From Bacillus sp. ISL-37 (GTDB lineage Bacteria; Bacillota; Bacilli; Bacillales; Cytobacillaceae): 37,041 bases of DNA. The notes below the pieces were generated by a model. The model did no database searches, was not told the origin of the DNA, and saw nothing but the letters and a program-made list of their open reading frames with translations. Below are positions 13,276 to 30,558 of the stretch, in pieces. Positions within the stretch are counted from its first letter, which is position 1, and each line of letters opens with the position of its first letter. Both the position numbers and the translations under genes were made by a program. The stretch covers positions 1-37,041 of the forward strand of contig NZ_JAGGQL010000056.1 of the NCBI RefSeq assembly GCF_018613315.1, written 5' to 3'.

Positions 13276-13297
13276 CATTTTTAATAAAAGGTTAAAA

Positions 13298-13542
13298 GCA
13301 ATGATGAAGAGTAGTACATTTGTTCAAGGCTTTTCAGAGAGTTTGTGGTTGGTGAAAACAAACAGCCTGGCAATTGGAATGGACTTTTGAGCTTCTGGTT
13401 TGAACTTAAGTAGATCCAGGCGTATTCCTGCGTTAAAGGAATCCATGCTTCACTGAGGCATGGGCAGAGTGACTCATTCGTGAGTAATTAGGGTGGCAAC
13501 ACGGACCATTCGTCCCTAGAAATTAGACGAATGGTCTTTTTT
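13298..13542 (+). ncRNA. Tryptophan-specific T-box riboswitch
   Basis: Leader RNA that reads tRNA-Trp charging and controls trpS by antitermination. Stem I elements are visible: an AGAGAG bulge region and the distal-loop GGTTGGTGAAAA. The specifier codon TGG is at 13380-13382 in the usual GAA-TGG-AC context. The T-box sequence AGGGTGGCAACACGG (13490-13504) has TGGC, which can pair with the tRNA 3' end GCCA expected for a tRNA-Trp with discriminator G. The terminator stem GACCATTCGTC (13504-13514) / GACGAATGGTC (13526-13536) is followed by six Ts. The terminator's 5' arm overlaps the T-box end, so the antiterminator excludes it. Uncharged tRNA-Trp should turn trpS on. Confidence 0.95.
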
Positions 13543-13617: not shown

Positions 13618-14619
<1,002 letters not shown>

Positions 14620-14670: not shown

Positions 14671-15417
14671 TCAATTTACTTTAGGGCCGTGCTCCATTTC
14701 CCAAAGTTTTTCGAAAAAGGATTGTCCTTTAATGATGTTTTCGCAAAACTTCTCGTGTTTATGTGACCAGCCAAACTTTGTCTCTTCATATAACCGTTCC
14801 CATACCTCTTCAAATCCAAGCCGTTGAATCTCTTCATATAATTCAGGTTTCCATTCAGTGAACCAGTAACGGACTTCAGCCACATTTTTTGAGGAACTCA
14901 ACTGGTCCATGGCCATGAACAATAATTGCTTCAACTGCCTCTCTTTACGCGTCAGCCCTCTCATTAAATCCGGAGCAGGCGATAAAATATGGAAGTCCTT
15001 TAAGGCACTTTGATCATTGAACCCATATTGGATCGTATCCTGATTTTCAATCATTTCGTACACGAGTTGCTCCTGGCGCGGGATAAGCCGGCTCTTTCGG
15101 ATTGGAATATTATAGCCGATGGTGTCAACAGCCAGTATGCCAGTTCCATCGGAAACAACGAAACAATAATCAAGCTGTGTACGTTCATGGTTTTTCCTCA
15201 AATATGCCTTACGGTAAATGTCATCCAGAAGCTGTTGAGGCAACTCTGATAAATCATTCTCAATGTAATTAAATAACAGATGGTCAATTTTAAGGAGCGG
15301 CACCTGGTCAAGCAGCTCAACTCCATCGTCCTTCCGCCATTCGTGGAAATGGCAGACATTATAGCCGTTCTCTTCCCCTTCGAACCAGTTTACCCAGACA
15401 TCATGAAGATACAACAT
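14671..15417 (-). CDS. yjbA: UPF0736 family protein YjbA
   Basis: 248 aa soluble protein of unknown function, conserved in Bacillaceae at this position next to trpS. It begins [19 protein letters not shown], as in the UPF0736 (DUF3603) family. The middle part contains [13 protein letters not shown] and the C-terminal part is rich in aromatic and charged residues ([24 protein letters not shown]). No signal peptide or membrane segment. GAGGGG stands about 9 bases before the ATG. Downstream of the small membrane-protein gene at 15499, with which it may be co-transcribed. Confidence 0.88.
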
Positions 15418-15921: not shown

Positions 15922-16958
15922 ACACTTTTGGCCTAACGGAGGCTTCTTCGGACATTTCCAGCGATCCCAATCACTGTTTTGGTCGAACCAATGGGCACTT
16001 CGGACTTTTCATGCGTTTCCAACCGCTGTTTTGGTCAAACCTGGGGTGACTTCGGACATTTCATGCGGTTCCAACCACTGCTTTGGTCGAACCTGAGGCC
16101 ACTTCGGACATTTCATGCGCTCCCAACCGCTGTTTTGGTCGAACCTAGGGTGACTTCGGACATTTCCAGCGATCCCAACCACTGTTTTGGTCAAACCTGG
16201 GGCCACTTCGGACATTTCATGCGGTCCCAATCACTGCTTTGGTCGAACCTGAGGCCACTTCGGACATTTCATGCGCTCCCAACCGCTGTTTTGGTCGAAC
16301 CTAGGGTGACTTCGGACATTTCCAGCGATCCCAGTGGTTGTTTTGGCCGAACCTAGGACTACTTCAGACATTTACTTCGGTTCCAATCACTGTTTCGGTC
16401 GAACCTAGGGTCACTTCGCACATTTCATGCGGTTCCAATTACTGTTTTGGTCAAACCTGGGGTGACTTCGGACATTTCATGCGGTTCCATTCACTGTTTT
16501 GGTCGAACCTGGGGCCACTTCGCACATTTCATGCAGTTCCAATCGCTGCTTTGGTCGAACCTGGGGCCACTTCGCACATTTCATGCAGTTCCAATCGCTG
16601 CTTTGGTCAAACCTAGGGTCACTTCGCACATTTTCTGCAGTTACAGTGGTTGTTTTGGCCGAACATGGAGTAACTTCGAACATTTCCTGGGTTCCGGCTC
16701 GCTGTTTTGTCCGAACCTGGGACCACTTCGGACATTTCACGCAGTTCCAATCGCTGCTTTGGCCGAACATGGGGGCACTTCGCACATTTCTCAGGATCCA
16801 GCTAGCTGTTTTGTCTGAACATGGGCTCACTTCGGACATTTCATACTGTTCCAGTGGTTGTTTTGTCTGAATATAGGGTCACTTCGCACATTTCATGCGG
16901 TTCCAATCGTTGTTTTGGCAGAATCTAATGCTGCTTCGAACATTAGCAACAGTTCCTA
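15922..16958. repeat. 52-bp tandem repeat array 1 (about 20 units)
   Basis: The landmark ACTTCGGACATTT (or a close variant) recurs with exact 52-base spacing: the CTTCG position is 15946, 15998, 16050, 16102 and so on to 16934. That is 20 occurrences over 19 periods with only substitutions and no indel. Other constant blocks are TTTTGGTC and GAACCTGGGG. A GGTTC/GAACC inverted repeat encloses a 17-base interior in many units. Degenerate half units flank both ends. A 156-base (three-unit) segment is nearly duplicated at about 16093-16176 and 16249-16332. All units are spacerless, so this is not CRISPR. The frame shifts by one base per unit and no ribosome binding site is seen, so it is not considered coding. 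It lies just downstream of the second transporter operon's terminator. Confidence 0.95.
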
Positions 16959-16994
16959 ATCCCCCTATTACCTCACCCCTCAAATAGACAAAAT

Positions 16995-17025
16995 AAAAAA
17001 TCTACCTTTGTATGGTAGATTTTTT
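16995..17025 (-). terminator. Terminator of the second (app-like) transporter operon
   Basis: Stem AAAAAATCTACC (16995-17006) / GGTAGATTTTTT (17014-17025), 12 bp and perfect, giving a T-run on both strands. The 3' arm overlaps the stop codon of the C-type permease gene. Confidence 0.9.
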
Positions 17026-17932
17026 AACGGCGTGATCTTGGATTCAATGCATCTTTTAGACCTTCACCTACGAAGTTGATTGACAAGATCGTGAGTGTAA
17101 TGGCAAGTGCTGGTGGAATCCAGATCCACGGCTTTCCTTGTAATACGTCTGGTTCATTCGCGAATGCTAGCATGTTACCCCAAGATGGAATCTCAGAAGG
17201 TACACCGAATCCTAAGAAGCTTAGTCCTGTTTCTGCGACAATCATGGAAGCGAACAGGATTGTTGCCTGTACGATGATTGTTGAAAGGACGTTCGGCAGT
17301 AAATGCTTTGTGATTACTTTGAATGGTGAGCATCCGATTGAGATGGAAGCCAGAATGTATTCATTTTCCTTCTCTGCTAAAATCTTGCTTCGGACAATCC
17401 TTGCTACCCCACCCCAGCTCAGCAAGCTGATAACCATGATCAGGATAACTAAACCATTGACTTTACCATGGAAAATTGTAGCCAATACGATAACGAAAAC
17501 CAGGAATGGAAAGTTCAAGACGAAGTCAGTGAAACGCATAAGCATGCTGTCAACGATTCCGCCGAAGTATCCTGCGATCGATCCTACAATTGTTCCAAAA
17601 ATGATTACGAATAATGTACAGCTAATTCCGACTAAGAGTGATACCCTTCCGCCGTATAACAATCTGGTAAAAACGTCACGCCCGTTTTTGTCCGTTCCCA
17701 GCCAGTGCTCTGCAGATGGCTTTAAGGACATAGAGCCAATATTGATTTTTGTGATATCTGTTGTTGTAATATATGGAGCCAGGAAAGAGACAATCATTAC
17801 GAATAACAAGAAGATCAAGCTTGTCATCGCCAACTTGTTCTTCACAAATTTTCTTCTAGCGATGGCCCAAGGAGACATGCCTTTTTCCGGCTTCAGGTTT
17901 ATCTGTGTATTATTTGCTGTAGAAACTTCCAT
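17024..17932 (-). CDS. Peptide ABC transporter permease (OppC/AppC type), operon 2
   Basis: 302 aa inner-membrane permease. Six helices; the hallmark GTDKNGRDVFTRLLYGGRVSL follows the first helix and loop. The EAA loop is ASISIGCSPFKVITKHLLPN, and it ends GEGLKDALNPRSRR. The ATG at 17932 is preferred: the preceding B-type gene's stop codon runs straight into AAGGAGG, and this ATG has normal spacing, whereas an ATG two codons earlier directly abuts the Shine-Dalgarno sequence. Last gene of a D-F-A-B-C operon resembling B. subtilis appDFABC in order, but its binding protein is not the AppA orthologue. Imported peptide class unknown. Confidence 0.9.
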   Translation of the reverse strand: MEVSTANNTQINLKPEKGMSPWAIARRKFVKNKLAMTSLIFLLFVMIVSFLAPYITTTDITKINIGSMSLKPSAEHWLGTDKNGRDVFTRLLYGGRVSLLVGISCTLFVIIFGTIVGSIAGYFGGIVDSMLMRFTDFVLNFPFLVFVIVLATIFHGKVNGLVILIMVISLLSWGGVARIVRSKILAEKENEYILASISIGCSPFKVITKHLLPNVLSTIIVQATILFASMIVAETGLSFLGFGVPSEIPSWGNMLAFANEPDVLQGKPWIWIPPALAITLTILSINFVGEGLKDALNPRSRR

Positions 17933-17943
17933 AGCCATCCTCC

Positions 17944-30107: not shown

Positions 30108-30558
30108 TGGGGATGGAATGCTCTGCTTTACCCAAATGCGGGGATAAGAACATTTTGGGCAATGCAGGTGCTCTCCTTTTACCATAATGCGGGGACAAGT
30201 ACTTTTTCGGGCAATGCAGGTGCTCTGCTTTTACCCAAATGCGGAGGCAAGTACTTTTTCGGGCAATGCAGGTGCTCTGCTTTTACCCAAATGCGGGGAC
30301 AAGCACTTTTTCGGGCAATGCAGCTGCTCTGCTTTACCCAAATGCAGGGACCAGTACTTTTTCGGGCAATGCAGATGCTCTGCTTTTACCCAAATGCAGG
30401 GACAAGTACTTTTTCGGGCAATGCAGCTGCTCTGCTTTTACCCAAATGCGAGGACAAGCAGATTTACGGGCAATGCACACGCTCGCCTTTTACCCAAATG
30501 CGGGGACAAGCACCTTTTTGGGTAATGGAGACGGTCTGCTTTTACCCAAAGTGCGGTA
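30108..30558. repeat. 52-bp tandem repeat array 2 (about 8.5 units)
   Basis: The landmark GGGCAATGCA recurs at 30157, 30209, 30261, 30313, 30364, 30416 and 30468, with a diverged GGGTAATGGA at 30520. The spacing is 52 except for one 51-base unit that lost a T in a TTTT run. Other constant blocks are TTTTACCCAAATGCGGGGAC and AGTACTTTTTCGGG. The sequence differs from array 1, but the unit length is identical. Spacerless, non-coding in appearance, edges more diverged than the centre. It lies between the appD upstream region and the fabF terminator. Confidence 0.93.

Follow-up and report, generated by a model that had tools for sequence, protein, structure and literature searches.

What keeps the unit length of a non-coding tandem repeat fixed while its units collect substitutions? 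The question is raised by a 52-bp satellite of Bacillus sp. ISL-37, located in a stretch of 37,041 nucleotides (contig NZ_JAGGQL010000056.1, positions 1 to 37,041) which is referred to here as the window. Satellites of 52 nt have been published without an explanation of how a constant length goes together with a changing sequence. The class is thus not new; what is new here is a 27-bp dyad core, the conservation of its half-sites and a covariation test.

Array 1, its setting and its class

Array 1, a 52-bp satellite of about 19-20 units assigned to family A, occupies positions 15922..16958 on the + strand, as defined by landmark spacing and by Tandem Repeats Finder (period 52, 18.7 copies, score 1000). 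The initial annotation had claimed 20 landmarks in exact 52-base steps over 988 bases with zero indels, and a recount confirmed this: CTTCG or CTTCA stands at 15946 + 52k for k = 0 to 19 (15946 to 16934) and the array is indel-free. Its autocorrelation reached 0.78 at lag 52, while lags 5-159 averaged 0.26, and a block of three units is duplicated within it. The array had also been placed outside genes, at the end of a transporter operon, and this was correct as well, since it is intergenic, bounded by the gene of a DUF3603 protein (14671-15417, - strand) and that of an OppC-like oligopeptide permease (17024-17938, - strand), the final gene of the operon. Between the permease gene and the array a stem-loop search found the terminator-like stem-loop of this gene (16994-17026, - strand); around array 1 the search gave 2 stem-loops against a mean of 1.6 in shuffles. 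No promoter-like site was found in the region of array 1 or of array 2 (see below), and there was no resolvase gene among the genes flanking array 1. On the DUF3603 side, positions 13292-13520 of the window are an ordinary T-box leader upstream of a tRNA synthetase gene (13630-14619).

Array 1 belongs to a published, unexplained class of 52-nt satellites. Subirana and Messeguer described non-coding satellites of this constant length in Bacillus and other Firmicutes, with several families per genome, a species-specific sequence and short signals accompanied by their reverse in one unit, and proposed either a polymerising nucleoid protein that needs a constant repeat size or small RNAs (PMC8161180). 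Our arrays resemble those described there in their constant 51-53 nt, non-coding position, variable copy number, several families per genome and signal with its reverse, which takes the form of inverted half-sites here. As far as the account in PMC8161180 deals with the unit, it mentions short signals; a fixed 27-bp dyad with shared ends, a comparison of half-site and spacer conservation and a covariation test do not appear in it. Among the titles listed in our literature search there was no paper on this particular 52-bp minisatellite.

In the source genome array 1 is one among many non-coding 52-bp arrays. When 619 kb of the genome was sampled without aiming at known arrays (the sample left out 10.5 kb of the array-bearing contig C26), 19 arrays of period 51-52 were obtained, i.e. 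approx. 1 per 33 kb, which by extrapolation would give roughly 145 arrays in the genome. Several array families of the same length coexist there. One of them, family B, is represented in the window by array 2 (30118-30556, + strand, Tandem Repeats Finder; approx. 8.5 units, of which some measure 51 bp), which is intergenic like array 1. Eight contig ends fall inside 52-bp arrays (the first base of L009, L012, L014, L016, L017 and L018, the last base of L021 and L024), thus array lengths in the assembly may be cut short. In 400 kb of a relative (G018) 12 arrays of period 49-55 were detected, one of them with a period of 53. In the trpS neighbourhoods of mixed Bacillota (80 named loci, 1.55 Mb) 52 was the commonest period at at least 2.5 copies, with 6 rows from 6 loci and at most 2 for any other period, apart from 6 more rows of period 104 or 156, which may describe the same arrays as the 52 rows.

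The check at the orthologous position gave a divided answer. An array was present in 8 of the 16 evaluable relatives of the same genus (G005, G008, G012, G013, G015, G016, G018 and G020), in G005 as two contigs both ending in it and in G008 with 2.7 copies. It was absent from the other 8, namely G007 and G014, where the intergenic region is short, and G001, G002, G003, G006, G010 and G019, which carry a similar longer insert; G004 breaks at the site and G009, G011 and G017 are outside the evaluable set. This partial conservation, together with a copy number that shifts at fixed sites (for example 3 versus 18 units), is as reported for the 52-nt class. The insert in G003 (L071:2414-3400) is an intact gene of 328 aa with a NERD domain. 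The right flank of array 1 resembles, by eye, the 3' end of this gene, hence the array appears to stand where the NERD-domain gene was lost or never gained.

The 27-bp dyad and its spread

Each unit of array 1 contains a 27-bp dyad. The core search returned 18 copies at 15980 + 52k (15980..16890, + strand; consensus TGGTCGAACCTGGGGTCACTTCGGACA), and more decayed copies are present at both ends of the array, the outermost of them read by eye. Among nine sequence families that could be told apart, the units of eight contain a core with two-fold symmetry which is exactly 27 bp long and bears the ends KGKC...GMCM (K = G or T, M = A or C), mostly TGTC-N19-GACA. Array 1 itself fails the strict test for this core and its left half-site is TGGTCGAA instead of the TGTCYGAA of most genus arrays; it is therefore a partly decayed copy.

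The rule on the ends was first suggested by a by-eye comparison of arrays. When 64 arrays were tested (31 from unaimed stretches, 33 chosen by similarity to array 1 or array 2), 42 had these ends at a total length of 27 bp, against 0-2 at every other length from 19 to 39 and about 0.5 per length in shuffled units. Since the rule was derived from the same genus arrays, the tests on other genomes and species carry more weight. The 22 arrays missed consist of 16 of family B and 6 others, array 1 included. The family B dyad of array 2 (8 copies in 30152..30547, + strand, core search) reads GGGYAATGCA-N6-CTGCTTTTACC(C), is 27-28 bp long and departs from the rule in its ends. In family C (L036:1341-1460 and L038:12583-12753) the period is 51 bp and the core still 27 bp.

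Of 27 published consensus repeats of other species, 5 have KGKC...GMCM ends at 27 bp and 22 do not; the ends occur once at each of the lengths 25, 34 and 37, and 19 repeats have them at no tested length (fewer if one repeat has two lengths). Two successive units, TGTC-N19-GACA-N25-TGTC-N19-GACA, occur in 69 of the 397 genomes of the order and in 30 of its 135 genera, up to 584 times per genome and 506 times in the genome of array 1. The expectation by chance is 0.4 sites over 397 genomes of 4 Mb, the reversed pattern as control gave 1 match in 1 genome, and 28-bp dyads at the same period were found in none of the 397. In a phylum sample of 199 genomes, 3 of them of the order, the pattern was present in our own genome only. 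In 30 loci of the order, which had been picked by N19, TGTC-N19-GACA appeared 160 times and no other gap length between 8 and 40 was seen more than 3 times; the TGTC-to-TGTC distance in these loci was 52 in 120 cases, 51 in 24, 50 in 5 and 53 in 2. The pattern was also observed in 19 stretches of viral contigs, from a collection whose total size is not given.

Conservation of half-sites and of unit length

Within arrays the half-sites are kept while the rest drifts. In 45 family A arrays the mean pairwise identity between units was 0.95 in the arms (the degenerate position 5 and its partner excluded), 0.78 in the loop and 0.72 in the middle of the spacer, and the arms exceeded the spacer in 45 of the 45. 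Between species the corresponding values were 0.94 for the arms, 0.66 for the loop and 0.46 for the spacer, based on orthologous arrays of three species in 23 pairings, not all of them independent because some loci recur. The unit finder scores the arms (66% weighted match), which introduces a bias in their favour; since 514 of the 517 intervals between found family A cores are one unit long, few units inside arrays can have been lost in this way. Only about 16 of the 52 bases per unit are held in family A and the held bases differ between families, which is why the repeats looked unconserved.

The combination of a symmetric repeat and a spacer of fixed length recalls CRISPR arrays. Unlike CRISPR spacers, however, those of our arrays are homologous copies within an array and not unique, and the period is a feature of the DNA in numerous arrays of one genome. 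A CRISPR-like layout of n+1 dyads bounding n spacers was considered and is unsupported: at an identity threshold of 0.6, the left outer flank is spacer-like in 13 and the right one in 16 of 34 arrays, which indicates that the arrays fade out via decayed units.

The length of the unit is constrained as well. After 3 intervals of 100 or more had been set aside, the family A core-to-core interval was 52 in 489 of 514 cases, 51 in 11, 53 in 12, and 50 and 55 in one case each, which agrees with the 51-53 nt of the published class. Complete freedom from indels thus belongs to array 1 and not to the whole class. Comparison of neighbouring units gave 25 length differences in 393 comparisons versus 2250 substitutions in the 28 loop and spacer columns, while the non-coding DNA flanking the arrays (27 alignments between orthologous arrays) showed 52 gap events per 375 substitutions. 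Length changes per substitution are therefore about 12-fold rarer in the arrays than in the flanking DNA (odds ratio 0.08), and the suggestion of the initial annotation that unit length may be under selection is upheld in so far as length is constrained.

A putative docking site and the competing explanations

We lean, by a modest degree, towards a reading in which each array would be a run of two-fold symmetric docking sites on double-stranded DNA for a putative dimeric DNA-binding protein. Each 52-bp unit would consist of one 27-bp dyad (TGTCYGAA / TTCRGACA in this genus, TGTC-N19-GACA order-wide) and a spacer of about 25 bp which is free in sequence and fixed in length. The protein, presumably present in some members of the order, would bind each dyad, and the period of five helical turns would put neighbouring dimers on one face of the helix, where they may touch and bind cooperatively. 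Since the arrays lie mostly at gene ends, the likeliest role would be an architectural one, with the nucleoprotein acting locally as a block or an anchor between one transcription unit and the next. Several results weigh against docking sites: no partner protein was found in our searches, family B and six further arrays do not follow the rule on the ends, 22 of the 27 published consensus repeats lack these ends at 27 bp, the rule was tested on the genus arrays that had suggested it, a slight excess is seen at position 11 (see below), and half of the evaluable relatives are without array 1.

The positions of the arrays relative to genes were as follows. Both neighbours are known for 30 of the arrays from unaimed stretches; 17 of these have co-directional neighbours, 11 convergent and 2 divergent ones, against 82, 25 and 30, respectively, among 137 background intergenic regions of more than 100 bp; the genes were called by a simple custom script, with a slightly different setting for the background. 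Arrays are weakly depleted between divergent genes (P 0.07 by Fisher's test, 0.026 by the binomial test), and their enrichment between convergent genes has a P of 0.047. In an earlier, array-selected sample 0 of 30 arrays lay between divergent genes. REP/BIME elements are tandem dyads at gene ends, too, and few of them lie in divergent intergenic regions. Our arrays resemble them in both respects and differ in the uniform 52-bp phase and in the absence of hairpin covariation.

A large part of the satellite class thus shares one anatomy, which can be tested. We suggest, more tentatively than the docking-site reading itself, that the seemingly unrelated 52-nt families of the order could be largely one site system, a 27-bp dyad with TGTC- or GGKC-type ends and 19 bp between them per five turns, read by a putative order-specific chromosomal protein which would load at many arrays and organise the chromosome between transcription units. 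The fixed dyad with conserved half-sites in 30 genera represents a concrete ligand, and a short oligonucleotide could be used to fish out the protein.

The strongest competing explanation, which we regard as unlikely, is an amplification drive: the dyads would be recognition sites of a recombinase or nuclease, e.g. a small serine recombinase, and amplification would favour the units whose dyads are intact, so that arms and length persist although the cell gains nothing from them. Small serine recombinases were considered because the res subsites of Tn3-type resolvases are, as far as PMC12217951 describes them, dyads of 12-bp half-sites, 25-34 bp long, with the centres of sites I and II generally five helical turns apart and the phasing important. 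Our arrays share with these res sites (as described in PMC12217951 and PMC9943657) the dyads of inverted half-sites, the spacing of about five turns and the phasing. The free change of copy number at fixed sites and the 3-unit duplication in array 1 also fit preferential multiplication. The arrays differ from res sites in being long and uniform, in occupying many places in the genome and in not adjoining a resolvase gene, as far as the flanking genes of array 1 and of 30 loci in other genera show. A serine resolvase, moreover, cuts at the 2 central bp of its site (PMC12217951), and a dyad of 27 bp, being of odd length, has no such middle pair at which a staggered cut could be symmetric.

The search for a partner spoke against such an enzyme, too. 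In favour of a resolvase, half-sites of these enzymes have a TGTC-type consensus; no paper giving such a consensus was found in the literature search. YneB, the genus-wide resolvase encoded in the lexA-yneA-yneB locus, was detected in 345 of the 397 genomes of the order and was absent from 13 of the 69 array-positive ones (E 1e-15), with no association between the two (Fisher P 0.12). It was therefore rejected as a required partner and is dispensable for the arrays; other resolvases could be involved. A second candidate, the small resolvase with an HTH_7 domain encoded in our own genome at L360:1414-2040, whose usual catalytic motif we take to be altered, gave zero matches at E 0.001 in the array-positive relatives G001, G010 and G013 and was rejected likewise. 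A partner gene adjoining the arrays was also dismissed, since no gene recurred when 59 ORFs flanking 30 loci in other genera were compared; apart from two weak matches, the comparison gave a single set of orthologous hits.

An RNA element, in which the array would be transcribed and each dyad would act as a hairpin in the RNA, appears improbable. Transcription of the 52-nt satellites has been reported for B. coagulans (PMC8625621). Of our own 22 arrays between co-directional genes, 17 carry the core antisense to the genes on either side, and G.T exceeds A.C on the gene strand at position 5 (68 versus 33). Over all positions of 37 co-directional arrays, however, the gene-strand counts were 189 G.T versus 166 A.C (20 arrays versus 14, with 3 ties), no promoter-like site lies near either array of the window, and none of the 4 Rfam matches in the 5 sources searched falls on an array. 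The covariation test drew on 296 distinct units from 46 arrays of the genus and on 96 units from 23 arrays at other loci; for both sets, arrays had been selected whose ends are intact and whose arms are for the most part paired. The Watson-Crick counts at positions 5-10 equalled the expectation for independence and no left-right covariation was seen. At position 11 double changes were slightly above expectation (10 versus 6.6 in the genus, 5 versus 2.1 in other genera). Position 5 of family A, with CG 250, CA 157, TG 83 and TA 35 (odds ratio 0.67, P 0.08), gave no pairing signal. Since the left and right half-sites vary independently, the hairpin is not the thing that is kept; with covariation absent and the strand bias inconsistent, the hairpin RNA is disfavoured, and a binding site on double-stranded DNA fits better.

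Least of all can the arrays be credited to slippage and unequal exchange alone, an already disfavoured and very improbable origin: copy number does differ between relatives, multi-unit duplications do occur in arrays and half of the evaluable relatives do lack array 1, but half-sites are kept against a drifting spacer in every family A array compared, the same 27/52 geometry recurs in 30 genera and length changes show the deficit given above. The preference of the initial annotation for a protein-binding element over slippage is accordingly favoured by the conserved symmetric half-sites and the absent covariation, while the binding itself, its cooperativity and the same face presented by every unit are putative.

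Some further observations concern the distribution of arrays and of other repeats. By hand count the core of 30 of 40 arrays in G016 and G018 was on the '-' strand in the first half of the chromosome record and on the '+' strand in the second; the bias, tested as 29 of 39, had a P of 0.003, with the origin assumed at the record start and orthologs counted twice. All 60 family A core matches of G018 are confined to 0.50-3.94 Mb of 4.70 Mb, so there are possibly few near the assumed origin; a single array of family B is located at 4.54 Mb. The genome of array 1 also contains tandem repeats of 20-21 bp (L039:13251-13451, L048:13589-13882 and L045:19034-19107), a length which is the other constant-length class in the account of PMC8161180. 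Finally, an element of about 34 bp, arranged as a tandem pair, is dispersed in the genome on both strands, at 247-316 of the window, L010:6136-6204 and L013:3769-3834.
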